In this document: piece by piece, positions 1,979 through 37,257 of the stretch
How the letters are laid out: each line of letters opens with the position of its first letter
Numbering within the stretch: position 1 is the stretch's first letter
NCBI GenBank assembly: GCA_029882535.1
Contig: JAOUKM010000012.1
Span: forward strand, 1 to 43,184
Source of the DNA: Candidatus Bathyarchaeota archaeon
GTDB taxonomy: Archaea > Thermoproteota > Bathyarchaeia > Bathyarchaeales > SOJC01
Length of the DNA stretch: 43,184 nucleotides
Direction of reading: 5' to 3'
The notes under the pieces: model-generated
Told to the model about the DNA's origin: nothing
Databases searched by the model: none
Seen by the model: only the letters and a program-made list of their open reading frames with translations
Position numbers and translations under genes: made by a program

Positions 1979-2054
1979 AGCGGGGTGGGGTAGCCAGGTT
2001 TAACCCGCTGGGCTCATAACCCAGAGATCCGTAGTTCAAATCTACGCCCCGCTA
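1979..2054 (+). tRNA. Initiator tRNA-Met (anticodon CAT)
   Basis: A full cloverleaf can be drawn by eye. The acceptor stem AGCGGGG pairs with CCCCGCT, and the D stem GGGT pairs with ACCC. The anticodon stem CTGGG/CCCAG holds the loop CTCATAA with CAT at 2015-2017, and the T arm is CGTAG-TTCAAAT-CTACG. Two initiator features are present: an A1-U72 closing pair and three consecutive G-C pairs (GGG/CCC) at the base of the anticodon loop. The discriminator is A at 2054 and CCA is genome-encoded at 2055-2057. There is no intron at the usual position 37/38. Confidence 0.97.
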
Positions 2055-2057
2055 CCA

Positions 2058-2367
2058 AAAACGTGCGTTCTTTGTGAGTGTGTGTTTGGTACAGTGACTA
2101 GACTATTCTATTAGGCTATTCTTAAGTTGCAGCTTACTTTTTGATGTCAGTTTTAGTTCGAATAAAAAGGAATGTTTGTAATTGAAACAGGATTTCCTAT
2201 GGGGTGTGGTTAAAGTCGTAAGTAAAAGAACTTATCGCTAAATGTTTATTGCGCGCGTGTCTTTATGTAAGGTTTAATAGTTGTGGTGGTTATTGAGATG
2301 GAGGAAGCCGTGTGCTGCATGATTGTTGTTTTGAAGCTGGTCGTCGCATGTTTAGGGGGGTGTGTTG
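2058..2367. other. Intergenic region without convincing gene
   Basis: About 310 bases between the tRNA and the next gene hold only short open frames. A 27-codon frame from ATG 2298 is Cys- and Val-rich and overlaps the next gene, so I do not regard it as real. An AT-rich stretch with GTTTAATAG near 2270 could be part of a promoter for the gene at 2368. Confidence 0.4.
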
Positions 2368-2553
2368 ATGATGGAAATTGAAGTTGGGGATAGGGTGAAG
2401 ATTCCTGCAGGTGGGAAGTTTCATCCGGAAGCGGGGCACTTCGGCAAGTGCGTGTGGATTAGCGAAGATGGAAAAACTTTGGCGATACTATGTGAAAGGA
2501 GTCACGAAGGCAAAAACACTGTTTTTATGGTGAAAGTCGATTCAAAGAAATGA
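2368..2553 (+). CDS. Small basic/acidic beta-rich protein, function unknown
   Basis: The 61-residue product begins MMEIEVGDRVKIPAGGKF. This is the look of a small SH3-like barrel: a VGDRV strand, a Gly turn, then FGKCVWISEDGKTLAILCE and NTVFMVKVDSKK as further strands. I do not recognise a named family. The start is ATG 2368 because a run of six G bases (2355-2360) lies 7 bases upstream; GTG at 2362 and TTG at 2365 are in frame but too close to that site. It is a single gene between tRNA-iMet and alba. A nucleic-acid-binding role would fit the fold guess but is only inference. Confidence 0.55.
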   Translation: MMEIEVGDRVKIPAGGKFHPEAGHFGKCVWISEDGKTLAILCERSHEGKNTVFMVKVDSKK

Positions 2554-2653
2554 GCGATATGCGCAAAGAATTGTCTCCACGATGCACGCACATTCTTTAT
2601 TGATTTTGTCATGCTCATACGCGCGCCTGTTTGTGTCGGCTCCTTACACCATA

Positions 2654-2665
2654 ACATTTAAGCCA
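2654..2665 (+). promoter_or_regulatory. Probable TATA box of the Alba gene
   Basis: ACATTTAAGCCA lies about 50 bases before the ATG at 2710. It shares the word ACATTTAAG with the region upstream of tRNA-iMet. A start site 25 bases downstream would leave a leader of about 25-30 bases. Confidence 0.45.
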
Positions 2666-2709
2666 CATGCTTCATATGAACAAGCCATAACAACAACTGG
2701 TGTAAATAC

Positions 2710-3096
2710 ATGTCAAACAAAGAACAAATCGAAAACGAGGCATCTACTGAAAAAGTGGAAAGCGAAGAAGCTGCAAAGGAAAAAGAAGTTAAAAGCCGCA
2801 GAGCACCTCCCAAAGCAAGCAAAGACCAAAACACAGTCTACATTGGAAACAAACCTCCAATGAACTATGTCATGGCAGTCATCACAGCTTTCAATATGAG
2901 TGACACGGATAAAGTCATCCTGAAAGCGCGCGGCCGCGCTATAAGCACGGCCGTTGATGTTGCCGAAATCCTCCGCAACCGATTCTTCAAAGACGCCAAA
3001 GTCCACGCCATCTCCATCGGCACCGAACAAATCACACCCAGAGAAGGCGGAAACCCGAGAAACGTCTCAACAATGGAAATTACAATTAAAAAATAG
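2710..3096 (+). CDS. albA: Chromatin protein Alba with charged N-terminal extension
   Basis: Residues 44-128 form the Alba domain: [19 protein letters not shown], then a central [20 protein letters not shown] segment, and a C-terminal strand pair with [12 protein letters not shown]. Alba dimers coat archaeal DNA and also bind RNA. The Lys in the KARGRAIS region is the class of residue acetylated in Sulfolobus Alba. Residues 1-43 are an unusual extension rich in Lys and Glu with basic stretches such as [12 protein letters not shown]; most Alba proteins are about 90 residues. I infer a flexible tail that could change DNA binding. The start ATG 2710 is the first in frame; no strong ribosome binding site is visible, so the extension's exact length is uncertain. 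Confidence 0.93.
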
Positions 3097-3195
3097 AACC
3101 ATTGGAGAAAACAGATCCGCCTATCCACTCTATTTTTGCAGAAACAACAGCTTCTACGCGCGCATTAAAAATTCAAGAGGCGCGTGTATTCCATT

Positions 3196-3338
3196 CTACT
3201 TTGCGAATTTAGCTGGATTTCTCTTAAACCTCTTCTTGTATTTAACGCTGCAGAAATAGAAAGTCTCTCCTTCGTAAATAATTTTGTATTCGGACTCTTA
3301 TCGTCCAATGTGGCGCTGCAAACAGTGTCCCTAGGCAT
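3196..3338 (-). pseudogene. YHS-domain protein, broken by a frameshift
   Basis: From ATG 3338 the frame reads MPRDTVCSATLDDKSPN, like the N-terminus of YHS metal-binding proteins (DPVCGM...). The continuation is in the next frame: YKIIYEGETFYFCSVKYKK, then RFKRNPAKFAK and a TAG at 3196-3198. This matches the family's YxGKTYYFCSxxCKKxFxxNPxKY pattern. Adding one A near 3285-3290 (GAATAC to GAAATAC) joins the halves into a 47-residue protein, the normal size. The second Cys of the FCSxxC pair is Tyr, and the usual Gly after the first Cys is Ser, so metal binding looks damaged too. This supports real decay rather than only a sequencing slip. Related YHS proteins bind copper or other soft metals. 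Confidence 0.65.
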
Positions 3339-3549
3339 TACCCACACTTACCATAACGTAGGTGCGCAGTATACATTATCTGCTATTTTACTCTACGCTT
3401 CAAGAGTGAAGAGTCATTGTTAGTACATACGTACGTGCGCGCCTAATAGTTTCTCCGTGGGTAACCTAATTTGTATAGAATACATACATAATAATACTAA
3501 AAAGAGAAAAAATGGTTGGTGAACAAAGAACAGATGTTAGCTTGTGAGC

Positions 3550-3696
3550 TTAATATCTTCTTTGATTTCTTTGTGGTCTTCGCTTAGAATAACATTCTCG
3601 GCAGTATACTGGTCTACTTCCGTCAGGCTTGAAGGGAACTTCACATTCATTTCCACAATCAGCACAAACTGCCTTATGCATCTCTCTTTCGTTCAT
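3550..3696 (-). CDS. 48-residue CxxC-x17-CxxC zinc-binding protein
   Basis: A short gene from ATG 3696 to TAA 3550-3552. The protein has CADC at residues 11-14 and CREC at 32-35, exactly 17 residues apart, with PFKPDGSRPVY between them and a basic tail (KRRPQRNQRRY). This spacing defines a known small zinc-ribbon family of archaea and some bacteria (CxxC-x17-CxxC), often found in proteins with basic, probably nucleic-acid-binding tails. The Cys pattern and KPDGxRPVYC core are seen directly; the function is not known. A GGAG lies 12 bases before ATG 3696; a second in-frame ATG at 3681 would still keep all Cys residues. Confidence 0.8.
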   Translation of the reverse strand: MNEREMHKAVCADCGNECEVPFKPDGSRPVYCRECYSKRRPQRNQRRY

Positions 3697-3785
3697 TCGC
3701 TATTTCAACTCCTATATTACTCAATGCAGAAAAACTAGTTCTTGCATGCATTCACTGCTTATACACAACACCCTATTAAACCTAT

Positions 3786-4090
3786 GTGCAGCGTTTAAAA
3801 CAACACTTTGTCTTCTTCGAAGAAAACTTTCTACTAGACAACAACTCTCCATCAGCATCCAATTCAGGATACTCCATATCCATCACCTATGAAACCAACG
3901 GAAAACCACACGTCAAAGTTCAAACGCAAGGAAACGTAGACAAAGCTGCCTTAAGAAGTGAGTTAAAGAAGAAGATCCAGACGCAAAGATCGAAGGATTA
4001 GCTGATGAACCATTGATAAAAGAGATATCAAATAAGACCTTGAAACCTGAGAAAAAACAAAAGAAGAAAAAATACTCTTCACAAGTCTAA
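3786..4090 (+). pseudogene. Small conserved-looking protein with a single-base frameshift
   Basis: From GTG 3786 the frame encodes a Ser/Asn-rich N-terminus, then SGYSISITYETNGKPHVKV, QTQGNVDKAALRSELK, and runs off into a stop at 3999-4001. In the frame one base earlier the text continues sensibly: EEDPDAKIEGLADEPLIKEI, then a very Lys-rich tail ending at TAA 4088-4090. One extra A in the run at 3965-3967 would join the two into about 101 residues. The joint protein has a beta-strand, GNVD, helix, PDAKIEGL layout, but I cannot name the family. The fault may be true decay, a homopolymer sequencing error or, less likely, programmed frameshifting. Confidence 0.55.
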
Positions 4091-4162
4091 TACTGATTAT
4101 GCAAACGACATTAAGAAATAAAAGCCAAGATCCCTAAACCATTATTCGAGTAGTGAAGAGAT

Positions 4163-4570
4163 ATGGGAAAGATTGTTCGTATAGGCATTACTTTTCCTTC
4201 TGAACTTCTTTCGGACTTTGACAAAGTTATTGAAGACATAGGGTACAAAAGCCGATCAAAAGCAATTCACGACACCGTTCGCACTTTTGTTAACGAACAG
4301 AAATGGCTTGCAGACGTGAAAGGAACAAGGGCTGGATCAATAACTATAATATACAACCATGAAACAAGAGAGTTAGAATCCGATCTAACAGACACCCAGC
4401 ATCACTTCGAATCTATAATTTGTGCCACGATACACGTCCATTTAACCAAAGAAAAGTGCTTAGAAACAATAGCAGTAAAAGGAGAAGCTGAGAAAATAAA
4501 ACAATTAGCCAAAAAGCTGAAAGCCAGAAAAGGAGTAGAAGAAGTTAGGCTGAACATCTTTTCGGTTTGA
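4163..4570 (+). CDS. nikR: Nickel-responsive transcriptional regulator NikR
   Basis: The 135-residue protein has the two NikR parts. An N-terminal ribbon-helix-helix (residues 1-45, VRIGITFPSELLSDFDKVI) binds DNA, and a C-terminal ACT-like domain senses nickel. The four Ni ligands of E. coli NikR (His76, His87, His89, Cys95) appear as His80, His91, His93 and Cys99 with identical spacing, so nickel sensing should be intact. NikR usually represses nickel uptake genes when nickel is plentiful. Here it precedes hypA by 92 bases and is followed by a Mrp/MinD ATPase. This suggests local control of nickel delivery to a hydrogenase or another Ni enzyme such as CO dehydrogenase. ATG 4163 is the only sensible start. 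Confidence 0.95.
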   Translation: MGKIVRIGITFPSELLSDFDKVIEDIGYKSRSKAIHDTVRTFVNEQKWLADVKGTRAGSITIIYNHETRELESDLTDTQHHFESIICATIHVHLTKEKCLETIAVKGEAEKIKQLAKKLKARKGVEEVRLNIFSV

Positions 4571-4662
4571 TAAGAAAAATTGAGATCAAACTAGGCAGAC
4601 CAAGTCTCAGTTGCATATGAAGTTACGATACTTTTAAAGCACAATTAACCTGAAGGATCAGT

Positions 4663-5061
4663 ATGCACGAATGGGCTTTAGCAGAAGCAGTGATTTCCAC
4701 AATTCTCAAAATAGCCGGAGAAGAAAGGCTAAAAGACATCGCTGAAGTAAACATCAAGATTGGCGAACTGCAACAAATAGATCAAGAGATATTCGAATTC
4801 GCTCTATCTCAACTCCAATCTCCCCTTCTCAAAAACGCGAAGTTCAATTTTGAAACTATAAAGGCTGAATTGAAATGCAAAGTTTGTGGGCGCCAATGGA
4901 GTTTTGACGCGGAAAACCTAGAAGAAGACGTATCAGAAGCAATCCACTTTATCCCCGAAATCGCCCACACATACATAAAATGTCCTAAATGCAGCAGCCC
5001 AGACTTTGAAATCCTAGTTGGACGCGGAGTTTGGTTGGAATCAATAAAAGGGGTGAAATAG
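4663..5061 (+). CDS. hypA: Hydrogenase maturation nickel metallochaperone HypA
   Basis: The protein starts MHE; His2 is the nickel ligand of HypA. Zinc ligands are Cys72, Cys75 (CKVC) and Cys107, Cys110 (CPKC). The two CxxC pairs are separated by about 31 residues containing an acidic insert, as in archaeal HypA of the Thermococcus type. The length of 132 fits the family. HypA delivers Ni2+ to the large subunit of [NiFe] hydrogenase together with HypB. A TATA-like CTTTTAAAG at 4631-4639 lies about 28 bases before the ATG, so the mRNA may have a very short leader. The stop is 2 bases before the ATG of the next gene, so the two are surely cotranscribed. No hydrogenase structural gene is present in the window. 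Confidence 0.95.
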   Translation: MHEWALAEAVISTILKIAGEERLKDIAEVNIKIGELQQIDQEIFEFALSQLQSPLLKNAKFNFETIKAELKCKVCGRQWSFDAENLEEDVSEAIHFIPEIAHTYIKCPKCSSPDFEILVGRGVWLESIKGVK

Positions 5062-5063
5062 CC

Positions 5064-5801
5064 ATGGTTGATTCCAGACTAAACGTCATCAACAAAAGAT
5101 TGGCAAAAATAGGAAAGATGATAGCAGTGTCAAGTGGCAAAGGGGGAGTAGGCAAAAGCTTGATCGCATCCACCTTGGCGCTTACACTTTCGAGAAGCGG
5201 CTTCAAAGTAGGTCTGCTGGACTTAGACTTCACCAGCCCATCTACCCACGTGATACTGGGAATTGAGGGATCATATCCTAAAGAGGAAAAAGGAATCATC
5301 CCACCCGTAGCTCACGGTTTAATGTACATGTCAATCATCTACTATTCCGGTGACGCGCCATCACCCTTGAGAGGCGTCGACATCTCTAATGCAATAATAG
5401 AGCTGCTGGCTATTACTCAGTGGGGCTCGCTGGATTTTCTTGTGATTGATATGCCTCCGGGCATCGGAGACGCGACATTGGACATGATAAGACTCGTTAA
5501 AGACATTAACTTCCTCGTTGTGACAACTTCATCTAAAGTGGTGTTTGAGACAGTTAGAAAATTGATGGAACTACTGAAAGACTTGAAGGTGTCCATCATT
5601 GGTATTATAGAGAACATGAAAATGACCGATTCGTCATTCATCCGCGAAAACGTTGAAAAGCACAACCTGTCCTTTCTGGGAGAAATAAAATTCGATCATA
5701 AGCTAGAGGACTCGATGGGAAACGTAAACAAATTATTAGAAACCAAGTTCGTAAAAAGCTTGGAGAGGATAGTCTCTCAGAAGCCTGAAATAAAATCTTA
5801 A
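5064..5801 (+). CDS. hypB: Mrp/MinD-type P-loop ATPase, probable archaeal HypB
   Basis: A 245-residue P-loop NTPase with a deviant Walker A, SSGKGGVGKSLIASTLAL, Walker B-like DFLVIDMPPGIGD and a DLDFTSPSTH switch region, all typical of the Mrp/NBP35/MinD class. Mrp scaffold proteins normally carry a C-terminal CxxC for an Fe-S cluster; at that place this protein reads IENMKMTDSSFIRENVEKH, without Cys. It directly follows hypA. In Thermococcus kodakarensis a Mrp/MinD-type ATPase beside hypA replaces the bacterial GTPase HypB as HypA's partner. The missing CxxC plus the nikR-hypA context make that role the best inference. The start is ATG 5064, with GGGGTG 8-10 bases upstream; an in-frame TTG at 5031 lies inside hypA. 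Confidence 0.8.
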   Translation: MVDSRLNVINKRLAKIGKMIAVSSGKGGVGKSLIASTLALTLSRSGFKVGLLDLDFTSPSTHVILGIEGSYPKEEKGIIPPVAHGLMYMSIIYYSGDAPSPLRGVDISNAIIELLAITQWGSLDFLVIDMPPGIGDATLDMIRLVKDINFLVVTTSSKVVFETVRKLMELLKDLKVSIIGIIENMKMTDSSFIRENVEKHNLSFLGEIKFDHKLEDSMGNVNKLLETKFVKSLERIVSQKPEIKS

Positions 5802-5880: not shown

Positions 5881-6516
5881 GTGGATTTGCGTGTGGATAC
5901 CATGTTCGAGTTTGGAAACCTTCGGTTTAGACCTACAGAAAAAGAAGATTTGAGATTGCTGCATGAGTGGGAAAACGATTTTGAACTAATAATGTACTCA
6001 AGAAGCAAGCCTATGAACTTTGTGAACATGGCGCAGTTAGAGAAACAATATGAAGAATGGGTGAAAGATGAGAAAAGCCTTCACCTTATCATTGAACTTG
6101 TTGATTCGAAAGAGGCTATTGGAATTGCTAAGCTGCGGCGAGGAGAATGGGGAAATGTGAAAACTGCAGATATTGGAACGTATATTGGCAAGAAGGAACT
6201 GTGGAGGAAAGGGTTAGGGCGACAAATTACAGTGGCTTTGTTAGAAATGTCCTTCAACCAATTGAATGCGGAACGGTGCGAGGCATGGAGCGTAGAATAC
6301 AATCGTCGTGCTCATAAAGCTCTGGAAGCCTGTGGTTTCAAAAAAGGCGGAATAATGAGACAAGCTGCGTTCGTTAATGGACGAAAATGGGACGGCTTCC
6401 ACTTTGATATACTGCGAGATGAGTACCTAAGTATACGAACAGACTTGCTAAAACGAACGTTGGAAGACAAATCAGAGGAATACCTTAAGAAACACTGCAC
6501 CATCGAAGGATACTAG
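5881..6516 (+). CDS. GNAT acetyltransferase, RimJ/RimL type
   Basis: The 211-residue product opens with a RimL-like strand and loop, LRFRPTEKEDLRLLHEWEND. It then carries the acetyl-CoA-binding motif A as IGKKELWRKGLGRQITVALL and motif B as YNRRAHKALEACGFKKGGIM. Such proteins acetylate N-terminal amines of ribosomal proteins or small-molecule amines; the substrate here is unknown. The start is uncertain: GTG 5881 fits a leaderless mRNA with TTAATAAG about 27 bases upstream, while ATG 5902 begins just before the domain. It stands alone between the hyp genes and pgk, which runs the other way with only 13 bases between their ends. Confidence 0.85.
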   Translation: MDLRVDTMFEFGNLRFRPTEKEDLRLLHEWENDFELIMYSRSKPMNFVNMAQLEKQYEEWVKDEKSLHLIIELVDSKEAIGIAKLRRGEWGNVKTADIGTYIGKKELWRKGLGRQITVALLEMSFNQLNAERCEAWSVEYNRRAHKALEACGFKKGGIMRQAAFVNGRKWDGFHFDILRDEYLSIRTDLLKRTLEDKSEEYLKKHCTIEGY

Positions 6517-19517: not shown

Positions 19518-20366
19518 TTGGCAGTCATCGAAACTAAAGACTTAACATATACGTATCCAAACGCTACAAAACCCGCTATCCACGGAGTCTCATTAAAAAT
19601 CGAAAAAGGTGAGTTCGTCATCCTTACAGGTCCAAGCGGATGTGGAAAAACCACTCTCTGCCGATGTTTTAACGGTTTGATCCCCCACTTCTACCAAGGA
19701 GAGCTAACAGGCGAAATCCAAGTCGCTGGCTTAAACGTTGCAGGCAATCCAATTCACAAGCTTACCCTTCATGTTGGACTAGTATTCCAAAACCCCGAAA
19801 ACCAGTTGTTTGCCCTATCAGTTGAAAAAGACGTCGCTTTCGGGCTGGAAAACCTCGGTGTTCCACGAGAGGATATGCAGAAGCAAGTAGACTGGGCGCT
19901 AGAGACCAGTGGCATTTATAACCTGCGTGAGAGAGCACCTGACGAGCTTTCTGGAGGACAGCAGCAACGAGTAGCTATTGCAAGCATCATTGCCATGCGT
20001 CCTGAAATCATGGTGCTAGACGAGCCAACCTCTTTCCTAGATCCTATGGGCGCTGAAAAAATCTTCGAAGTTATAGATAAGCTGAATAAATCTTTAGGCA
20101 TTACAGTAATTTTAGTTGAACACCGGCTGGATTTAGCGGCAAGATATGCAAACCATGTTATTGTAATGGATAAAGGAAAAATTATCTTAGATGGTGAACC
20201 TAGAACGGTTTTAGGCTCTCAAAAAGCCCGTTTACTAGGAGTTGGGATACCGAAAGCAACAAGACTGTACCAAATTCTCGAAGAGGAAAATGGACTGAAA
20301 ACGGATAACGTGCCAGTAACGTCCGAGGAGATTGTAAAGCTTTTGCGCGAGGTTTTGAAAACATGA
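19518..20366 (+). CDS. ecfA1: ECF transporter ATPase subunit A1
   Basis: The 282-residue ABC ATPase has Walker A LTGPSGCGKTTLCRCFNGL, a Q-loop VFQNPENQLFALSVE typical of ECF ATPases, signature LSGGQQQRVAIAS, Walker B MVLDEPTSFLDP and switch His in VEHRLDLAA. It drives uptake of a vitamin, metal or other micronutrient through EcfT and an S component. The start is TTG 19518, as no other start lies between it and the domain. A TATA-like TCTTAAAT near 19476 sits about 40 bases upstream. Its stop overlaps the ATG of the next gene by 4 bases (ATGA), so the three ECF genes form an operon. Confidence 0.93.
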   Translation: MAVIETKDLTYTYPNATKPAIHGVSLKIEKGEFVILTGPSGCGKTTLCRCFNGLIPHFYQGELTGEIQVAGLNVAGNPIHKLTLHVGLVFQNPENQLFALSVEKDVAFGLENLGVPREDMQKQVDWALETSGIYNLRERAPDELSGGQQQRVAIASIIAMRPEIMVLDEPTSFLDPMGAEKIFEVIDKLNKSLGITVILVEHRLDLAARYANHVIVMDKGKIILDGEPRTVLGSQKARLLGVGIPKATRLYQILEEENGLKTDNVPVTSEEIVKLLREVLKT

Positions 20367-21181
20367 TAAAAGTCAAAGACGTTTACTTCACTTATCCAAC
20401 CGGCGTTGAAGCGTTGAAAGGAGTCTCTCTAACAATAAGAGATGGCGAATTCATAGCCATAATGGGTCAAAACGGCGCTGGAAAAACAACGTTAATAAAA
20501 CATTTCAACGGGCTGCTGAAACCCACAAAGGGAGAGGTTTTGGTTGGCAGCGTAAATACGAAAACTACAAGCGTGGCTAGACTCGCGCGAAACGTAGGGT
20601 TTGTCTTCCAAAATCCCGACAACCAACTTTTCTGTGAAACCGTAGAAGAAGAAGTTGCCTTCGCCCTCAAAAACTTCGGCTACAAAGACACCACATTAAA
20701 AAAGAGAGTGACATGGGCTCTGAACCTGTTAGGGCTTACGGAATACCGGAAAACCTCGCCTTTCATGCTTAGCGGAGGCGAAAGAAAACGTGTTGCTCTA
20801 GCGTCGGTGCTTGCTTGGAACCCTAAAGTTGTGGTAATGGACGAACCTACAATAGGACAAGACTACCAGCAAAAGGAAATACTTCGCCAATTTATAATCC
20901 AACTGAACACGCAAGGAAAAACCGTTGTAGTAGTCACTCACGATGTGGAGTTCGTAGCGGAATGTAACCCCCGCGTAATACTAATGTCTGAAGGAAAAAT
21001 CGTCGCAGACGGTGTCGGAAAAAAAGTGCTCACAGATATTGACCGTTTAACTCAAGCTTCTATAGTGCTGCCGCAAGTAGCTCAGATATTTATGGGTTTA
21101 ACAGATTTTGGGCTACCAACAGATGTAATTGACCTTTACGAAGCAAGAGAAATCCTGATGAAACGGCTGGGTGAGAAATGA
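20363..21181 (+). CDS. ecfA2: ECF transporter ATPase subunit A2
   Basis: The second ABC ATPase, 272 residues, differs clearly from A1, as in heterodimeric ECF modules. It has Walker A IMGQNGAGKTTLIKHFNGLL, Q-loop VFQNPDNQLFCETVEEEVAF, signature LSGGERKRVALAS, Walker B VVVMDEPTIGQD and switch VVVTHDVEFVAEC. The sequence after Walker B (IGQDYQQKE) replaces the common GLDP, which is frequent in A2-type subunits. Start and stop both overlap their neighbours by ATGA. It works with EcfA1 to power the transporter at the inner face of the membrane. Confidence 0.93.
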   Translation: MIKVKDVYFTYPTGVEALKGVSLTIRDGEFIAIMGQNGAGKTTLIKHFNGLLKPTKGEVLVGSVNTKTTSVARLARNVGFVFQNPDNQLFCETVEEEVAFALKNFGYKDTTLKKRVTWALNLLGLTEYRKTSPFMLSGGERKRVALASVLAWNPKVVVMDEPTIGQDYQQKEILRQFIIQLNTQGKTVVVVTHDVEFVAECNPRVILMSEGKIVADGVGKKVLTDIDRLTQASIVLPQVAQIFMGLTDFGLPTDVIDLYEAREILMKRLGEK

Positions 21182-21963
21182 GCGTTTTTGACGGTTTAAA
21201 GTTCAGAAGAGTTACGTCTCCCATCCACATGCTAGACCCGCGAATCAAGTTTCTTTATGTCTGCTCAATTTTCGTGGTCGCAATACTCTTTTGGGAATTA
21301 CTTCCCCTAATCATCTTATTTCTAATGCAAATTCCGTTTGTTCTTTTGGCGCGTGTTCAGAAAGAATGGGTACGCTCTCTGAGAGGAGCAGCGTTTCTAG
21401 CTGTAATTATTTTCAGTACTAACCTTTTTTTCAGGTTTATGTATACAGGTTATCCAACGCTTCAGGACATTGAATATGCTTCAGCAATGACACTGCGCTT
21501 CGTAGTACTTGTCGAATCCTTCTCAGTATTCTTTCTAACAACTTCGCCAGACCATTTGGGTTTGGCTTTGGAGCAAAGCCACGTTCCATACGAGTTTTGC
21601 TTCGCCTTCACCACTGCCGTAAGGTTTGTTCCAGTCTTGGCTGATGAAGCCCAAACGATTATGGATGCTCAGAAAGCTCGGGGGCTGGAGCTTGAAAAAG
21701 GAAACTTTTTGAAGAGAATAAGAAACTACATTCCAATTCTCATCCCCCTAATCATCAGTGCCATTCGCAGAAGTCTAGAGCTCGCAGAAGCTATGGAATC
21801 GAGAGCTTGGGGCGCCATCGAAAAGCGCACTAACCTGTACGTTTTGAAAATGAGAAAAGCTGACTATTTGCTAATCTTAGCTTCCATTCTTATATTGATA
21901 ATCGGTGTTTACATACGGTATTATGTGCCTACACCGTCATTTTCAGACCTTTTAAAGCTGTAA
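21178..21963 (+). CDS. ecfT: ECF transporter transmembrane subunit EcfT
   Basis: The 261-residue membrane protein has about five helices (for example FLYVCSIFVVAILFWELLPL and ILASILILIIGVYIRYYV). It also has both cytoplasmic coupling motifs of EcfT: DAQKARGLELEKGNF and EAMESRAWGAIEKR, the two A-R-G/A boxes that contact the ATPases. It couples ATP hydrolysis to toppling of an S component. No S component follows; the nearest candidate is at 36404, about 14 kb away, so this is a group II type module that may share several S components. ATG 21178 overlaps the ecfA2 stop. Confidence 0.92.
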   Translation: MSVFDGLKFRRVTSPIHMLDPRIKFLYVCSIFVVAILFWELLPLIILFLMQIPFVLLARVQKEWVRSLRGAAFLAVIIFSTNLFFRFMYTGYPTLQDIEYASAMTLRFVVLVESFSVFFLTTSPDHLGLALEQSHVPYEFCFAFTTAVRFVPVLADEAQTIMDAQKARGLELEKGNFLKRIRNYIPILIPLIISAIRRSLELAEAMESRAWGAIEKRTNLYVLKMRKADYLLILASILILIIGVYIRYYVPTPSFSDLLKL

Positions 21964-36403: not shown

Positions 36404-37165
36404 TTAGTATTTTTGGCTTTCCATTTTTGTTTGAAGAAAATCAACAGCTAATACTCTAGTACCTCTTCTTTTCAGAGCCAAAAGAACTGCTGTACCTATG
36501 ATAGCCCCTGCAAGACAGTTCAGAAAATCTGCTATAGCATAGTATAAAGTAAGTGGCGCCCAAAATGGATACATCTCGGGTGTTCCCCAACCCAGAATCC
36601 AAACAGCAATGTTATTGCTAGTGGCAACTTCTCCACCAATTCGAGCAATCCAAGCTAAGCACCAGAGAGCTATGGGTAACCTCTTTTCGTCTCTTGTCCG
36701 TATCGAGTCAATCAGCCATTTACGTATTGGAGGTGTTGCAATCAGAATCAGCGCAAGCCAGGATTGCCACGTTATAATAGGCATGGCTTCATACCAAGCA
36801 AATGGATGTGCAAACCAAACGATCATTTCCAATCCGAAGATTAGCGTCGCTTCTTTCCATCGATTGAATAGGACAAGTCCGCTCATCAAAGCTCCTAATG
36901 TAGGACTCAGAAAAGTGAATAAGCCTATTGATGTTGCAGGATTTACGAAGGGAACTAGCCAGCCAAAAATAAAACCAGAAATAGTGCCCCACAGAGGACC
37001 CAGAAGCGGTGCCGTAAGACTGGAGAAAAGAATACTCGATAAAGTGATTTGTGCAGGCGTTCCAAAAATGGGGTAAACAGGTACAATTGCAGTCCCCAAC
37101 ATTAACGCGACCCAAATTGATATAAGCGCAATAAAAACTGCATTTGTAACATATTTTCTGTTCAT
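36404..37165 (-). CDS. ECF transporter S-component-like membrane protein
   Basis: The 253-residue protein has about six hydrophobic helices. The N-terminus (VTNAVFIALISIWVALMLGT) and the G/P-rich middle (LLGPLWGTISGFIFGWLVPF, LGALMSGLVLFNRW) resemble ECF S components of the QueT/HmpT-like group. The substrate cannot be read from the sequence. The start is ATG 37165, four bases after AGGTGGAG; the frame is open to 37174. It diverges from the CitG-like gene with 92 bases between the two starts. It may use the EcfA1-A2-T core at 19518-21963. Confidence 0.75.
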   Translation of the reverse strand: MNRKYVTNAVFIALISIWVALMLGTAIVPVYPIFGTPAQITLSSILFSSLTAPLLGPLWGTISGFIFGWLVPFVNPATSIGLFTFLSPTLGALMSGLVLFNRWKEATLIFGLEMIVWFAHPFAWYEAMPIITWQSWLALILIATPPIRKWLIDSIRTRDEKRLPIALWCLAWIARIGGEVATSNNIAVWILGWGTPEMYPFWAPLTLYYAIADFLNCLAGAIIGTAVLLALKRRGTRVLAVDFLQTKMESQKY

Positions 37166-37257
37166 TTTCTCCACCTGTGTAGTTTTGTAAATTGCTGTGT
37201 ACTTTTTTACACAACGTTAATAAAACTTCTTCTCCATGTCTTAAAAGAGGTAGTCTT

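Follow-up and report, generated by a model that had tools for sequence, protein, structure and literature searches.

The question raised by this locus is whether the ATPase gene directly behind hypA encodes an archaeal HypB, and whether the nikR gene in front of the pair makes it a nickel-controlled unit. The window, i.e., the whole stretch of 43,184 nucleotides analyzed here, corresponds to contig C12 in a genome assembly of 1.73 Mb and 83 contigs, with a stated completeness of 97.5%. All three genes are on the forward strand, and the initial annotation, which described a compact nickel circuit with a probable archaeal HypB, gave the coordinates of the block correctly. The gene nikR (4163..4570) encodes a nickel-responsive RHH regulator of 135 aa, hypA (4663..5061) a nickel metallochaperone of 132 aa, and the third gene (5064..5801) an ATPase of the Mrp/MinD family of 245 aa, whose closest named relatives are found in Candidatus Bathyarchaeota MAGs. 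The ATG of the ATPase gene at 5064 is two bases past the HypA stop, an alternative TTG start at 5031 would give an overlap with HypA, and a GNAT acetyltransferase gene (5881-6516) follows. Elsewhere in the window, at 19518-21963 and 36404-37174, there are ECF-type transporter genes for two ABC ATPases and a CbiQ-family subunit, as well as a separate protein that resembles a membrane substrate subunit by eye and has no Pfam match.

The ATPase carries the Walker A motif SGKGGVGKS and has zero cysteines in its 245 aa, hence no CxxC, as the initial annotation had observed. Its top PDB match by phmmer is the HypB of Thermococcus kodakarensis (TkHypB, 3vx3, also 5aun-5auq) with 235 bits, and the best Fe-S Mrp reaches 114.6 bits. 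An AlphaFold2 model built from 21 sequences (mean pLDDT 90.8) matches the chains of the HypAB-Ni complex (5auo/5aun) with Z 36.1, an rmsd of 1.3 and 48% identity, whereas ApbC, Cfd1 and Mrp do not exceed Z 28.1. In a quick tree of 91 rows the ATPase falls among HypA-linked rows, including two Thermococcus MAGs, and apart from a Mrp side that holds 34 unlinked rows and two Mrp proteins of the same genome (SH-aLRT 97). The SH-aLRT of 88 for the HypA-linked branch, in a quick tree that came with a long-branch warning, counts against the HypB reading. At E 0.001, the NCBIfam scan of the ATPase did not recover TIGR00073, the family model of GTPase HypB. Collectively, sequence and predicted fold strongly support that this is an ATPase-type (Mrp/MinD-type, Thermococcus-type) archaeal HypB, as had been proposed; the identity appears secure and the kind is already known.

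The gene neighborhood points in the same direction. The best 80 of 219 loci from named genomes split by their score to the ATPase into 46 at 197 bits or more and 34 Mrp-like loci at 141 bits or less. A hypA gene is found upstream within 0.9 kb on the same strand in 42 of the 46 high-scoring loci and in none of the 34 others. Two of the four exceptions (L032 and L066) start at a contig end and a third (L036) has only about 0.45 kb upstream, while L043 lacks hypA over 3.5 kb of upstream sequence, which is a point against the HypB reading. Among the relatives, hypA adjoins the ATPase gene in 30 of 30 loci, our own included (best 30 of 42 genomes). The gene is reportedly described in the abstract of the 2013 Sasaki study as conserved in species without hypB and adjoining hypA. 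In 15 of the 46 named loci the flank includes a hydrogenase subunit or a further hyp gene, and genome G015 has the order hypF-hypC-hypA-hypB-hypD. ATPase-type HypB was also seen on nine contigs labelled as bacterial (L031, L032, L037, L050, L055, L058, L062, L063 and L068; labels WOR-3, Stahlbacteria, Zixiibacteriota, KSB1, unnamed bacterium, Patescibacteria, Elusimicrobia and Spirochaetales), eight of them with hypA and the ninth, L032, beginning at a contig end. These contigs represent either transfer or misbinning.

The partner protein differs with the kind of HypB. HypA of the window (NF003008, 163.7 bits, cut-off 125; sole PDB match T. kodakarensis HypA, 3a43, 108.2 bits) has the N-terminal M1-H2-E3 (MHE) motif, the Zn-site cysteines C72, C75, C107 and C110 in two CxxC, and H95 in AIHFIPE, which corresponds to His98 of T. 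kodakarensis HypA. According to an excerpt of a review (PMC7055735), the nickel in the T. kodakarensis complex is bound by HypA through its MHE motif and His98. All 70 distinct HypA strings beside ATPase-type HypB have the loop HF[IVLA]P[ED], with A at its third position in 5 and I, V or L in 65; as three of the strings are cut copies of others, this is 67 of 67. Beside GTPase HypB the loop occurs in 0 of 23 matches, or 0 of 20 places because L184 and L185 repeat others and L165 stops before the loop. A careful tree of 46 HypA, with 28 chosen from the 70 of the ATPase kind and 18 of the GTPase kind, separates the two groups with support 100/100. This shows that HypA and HypB are exchanged together as a matched pair, and that the HypA loop follows the kind of HypB.

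The two kinds exclude each other in our comparison set of 81 genomes (our own and 80 relatives). Counting ATPase-type HypB at 223 bits or more and GTPase HypB at the TIGR00073 cut-off of 121.2, we found 42 genomes with the ATPase type, 25 with the GTPase, none with both and 14 with neither (Fisher p 3e-11, a value that ignores relatedness). Four more genomes pass by E-value with Mrp-like matches only. HypD is present in 68 of the 81, i.e., 39 with the ATPase type, 23 with the GTPase and 6 with neither kind at the thresholds used (G001, G010, G011, G028, G060 and G069). The 13 genomes of the window's family divide into 3 ATPase, 5 GTPase and 5 neither, and genus g15 is mixed, with the ATPase type in G017 and G036, the GTPase in G042 and neither in G060. 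A separate GTPase-type HypB in the same genome, which had been named as a finding that would speak against the annotation, did not appear: the top TIGR00073 match reaches 39.7 bits, at a MeaB-like gene, in an assembly that is not closed. Three places over the Pfam PF02492 cut-off were considered as GTPase HypB and rejected, as none reaches the TIGR00073 cut-off; judged by eye, their translations look MeaB-like (C18, where a mutase-like frame precedes the gene), cyclic-diphosphoglycerate-synthetase-like (C11) and SRP54-like (C1).

The gene order suggests how the exchange took place. A contiguous hypC-hypB-hypA-hypD run is present in 15 of the 22 GTPase genomes viewed (of 25). In the others, the genes lie about 0.9 kb before hypD (G063), are cut by contig ends (G030 and G021), run hypC-hypB-hypA with HypD not found in the genome (G066 and G023), are arranged differently (G019) or have the GTPase pair elsewhere (G042). 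In the ATPase genomes, hypC and hypD abut in 18 of the 20 viewed (of 42, mostly those with the best HypD scores); in G053 the two are about 0.5 kb apart, and in G015 hypA-hypB fills the slot. As this slot is usually filled by the pair in GTPase genomes and mostly empty in the ATPase genomes viewed, the hypA-hypB pair appears to have been lost and regained as one unit.

Taken as a whole, the locus is very probably explained by an ATPase-type HypB that, with the adjacent HypA, loads nickel into Mvh/Vhu-like [NiFe] hydrogenases. By analogy with T. kodakarensis, the two proteins would assemble as HypA2-HypB2; once ATP is bound, His95 and the N-terminal Met-His-Glu motif of HypA would come together as a nickel site of high affinity, and Ni-HypA would then hand the metal to the immature large subunit of these hydrogenases. 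Nickel-dependent control by the adjacent NikR is a plausible addition.

This last step, a sensor-chaperone-ATPase operon in which NikR controls hypA-hypB by nickel, is an addition to the best explanation and not an alternative to it, and we consider it quite possible but slightly doubtful. In its favor, nikR is directly upstream on the same strand with a full set of nickel ligands. The protein matches NCBIfam NF002169 over residues 3-132 (165.8 bits, cut-off 111) and Pfam NikR_C alone (102.9 bits, no separate RHH domain), with 2bj1 as best PDB match (113.9 bits). Its H80, H91, H93 and C99 align with the four nickel ligands of E. coli NikR, which we take to be H76, H87, H89 and C95, so the upstream NikR with all four ligands is as first described. 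The identical order nikR-hypA-hypB recurs in G012 and G007, which belong to the same family as our genome. However, these three are the only ones among the 30 relatives' loci, with nikR absent from 1.5 kb flanks of the other 27, and NikR was not found near the 46 named loci in flanks of up to 10 kb, many of them short. NikR is intact in the window and G012, whereas the G007 copy (L179, 10578-10895) lacks the N-terminal DNA-binding part. A search for operator dyads gave none that stood out from shuffles: no inverted repeat was found in the gap between nikR and hypA (shuffles 0.33 and 0.39), and 5' of nikR there is a single exact 6-base repeat (shuffles 0.63). Additionally, a TATA-like element, tacttttaaag (4629..4639, forward strand), is seen in the sequence and in a five-genome alignment 24-34 nt 5' of the hypA start, and is also kept in G017 and G036, both without nikR. 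A separate promoter for hypA-hypB at this element is possible. According to an excerpt of PMC3087415, a Methanothermobacter NikR homologue stands beside a zinc transporter and was suggested to sense zinc. Because of the narrow adjacency, the truncated G007 protein, the dyad search in which nothing stood out and the TATA-like element of hypA itself, NikR regulation is plausible only, and the term compact nickel circuit goes further than our results do. Upstream of the block, tRNA-Met lies about 2.1 kb 5' of nikR in the window and about 0.1-0.25 kb in G007 and G012; the region 1979-4162 of the window holds about 1.9 kb extra between the two, including an Alba gene.

The candidate clients are encoded outside the window. 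The initial annotation rightly saw no hydrogenase gene here, and phmmer with three subunits of the same genome as queries matched no NiFe-hydrogenase subunit in the window; Mvh/Vhu-like hydrogenases and CODH are found elsewhere in the genome. A complete large subunit on C2 has both cysteine pairs (RICGVC and DPCIKC) and scores 403.7 bits to the VhuA model, under the cut-off of 800. MvhA-like pieces on C14, C32 and C37 each end at a contig end, likely from an assembly break at a repeat. In the corresponding loci (L017, L015 and L018), two MvhA-like frames have a near-identical start at contig ends, and C37 holds an N-terminal MvhA-like piece.

It is very unlikely, in our view, that the pair serves a different nickel enzyme, e.g., CODH/ACS, in place of [NiFe] hydrogenase. 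The idea arises from the missing Fe(CN)2CO branch: searches of the assembly, at 97.5% completeness, did not find HypC, HypD or HypF, a point against the HypB reading, and a CODH large subunit gene is present on C16. Three HypF matches in the genome were rejected as weak, the best scoring 30.3 bits where the cut-off is 466.1. However, HypE is encoded on C28 (347.3 bits, cut-off 251.6), the complete hydrogenase large subunit retains both cysteine pairs, and HypD accompanies ATPase-type HypB in 39 of 42 genomes. Two other MinD-type ATPase genes adjoin the CODH gene and, judged by their position, look CooC-like; no CooC-type linkage connects the CODH gene on C16 with the window ATPase on C12. In the sister genome G012, hypF, hypC and hypD lie within one 8.7 kb stretch (1969-10642 of L192), so a single gap could remove all three. 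One assembly gap is therefore the likeliest reason for their absence, and one deletion may also account for it. The PurM-like gene and helicase that flank the stretch in G012 have counterparts 1.4 and 1.9 kb from the ends of C34 and C20 in our assembly, where they have other neighbors than in G012. A cell that truly lacks HypC, HypD and HypF is similarly improbable; in it, the pair under NikR would insert nickel independently of Fe(CN)2CO assembly, for an altered hydrogenase site or a different nickel enzyme. Nickel loading of Mvh/Vhu-like hydrogenases is the reading we prefer.

That the ATPase is a Mrp/NBP35/ApbC Fe-S cluster carrier with hypA beside it by chance is almost certainly wrong: general models do label it so, which speaks against the HypB reading (Pfam PF10609 'NUBPL iron-transfer', 179.8 bits, above cut-off; NCBIfam MrpORP, 161.7 bits, under its cut-off of 450), but we rejected it on the lack of any cysteine, the tree and the fold, the protein being nearer to TkHypB also by sequence and its genes being linked to hypA, and the genome already has two canonical Mrp paralogues, which carry ICPKCG and match PF10609 with 319 bits. 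General family models should thus be read with caution, as they label ATPase-type HypB as iron-sulfur carriers.

Our results place ATPase-type HypB, experimentally known from Thermococcus, in Bathyarchaeota-type genomes. That HypA and HypB are exchanged as a pair is, in our view, more interesting than the hypothetical sensor circuit, and genus g15, which has both kinds, would be a natural test of why a cell might change from GTP- to ATP-driven nickel insertion or back. At the level of search listings, literature on NikR with archaeal HypA/HypB and on Bathyarchaeota HypB with hydrogenase named no such unit, and a search for mmHypB gave no match.

Compared to known systems, the window NikR is like 2bj1 and E. 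coli NikR (1q5v) in full length and the four nickel ligands, and unlike them it stands beside hypA-hypB, with no operator found. With the Fe-S carriers Mrp, NBP35 and ApbC (3kb1, 8zkc, 6g2g), the window ATPase has in common the MinD-type P-loop ATPase fold and the deviant Walker A, but it has no CxxC and matches them with only Z 25.5-28.1 and 114.6 bits or less. GTPase HypB (TIGR00073, G3E family) presumably has the same role as NTPase partner of HypA; however, it belongs to another NTPase family and its HypA partner lacks the HFxPE loop where readable. The ATPase-type HypB of T. kodakarensis (3vx3, 5aun-5auq) has been studied in work (Sasaki, 2013; Watanabe, 2015) covered in excerpts of three reviews (PMC12134894, PMC9164220, PMC7055735). 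Our locus differs from it in the Bathyarchaeota-type host and in nikR directly upstream, and the window has neither hydrogenase genes nor further hyp genes. Like that system, the window's genome has no GTPase HypB over cut-off, its HypA carries the loop with the counterpart of His98, and the two ATPases are alike in length and in fold (Z 33.9-36.1, 48% identity).
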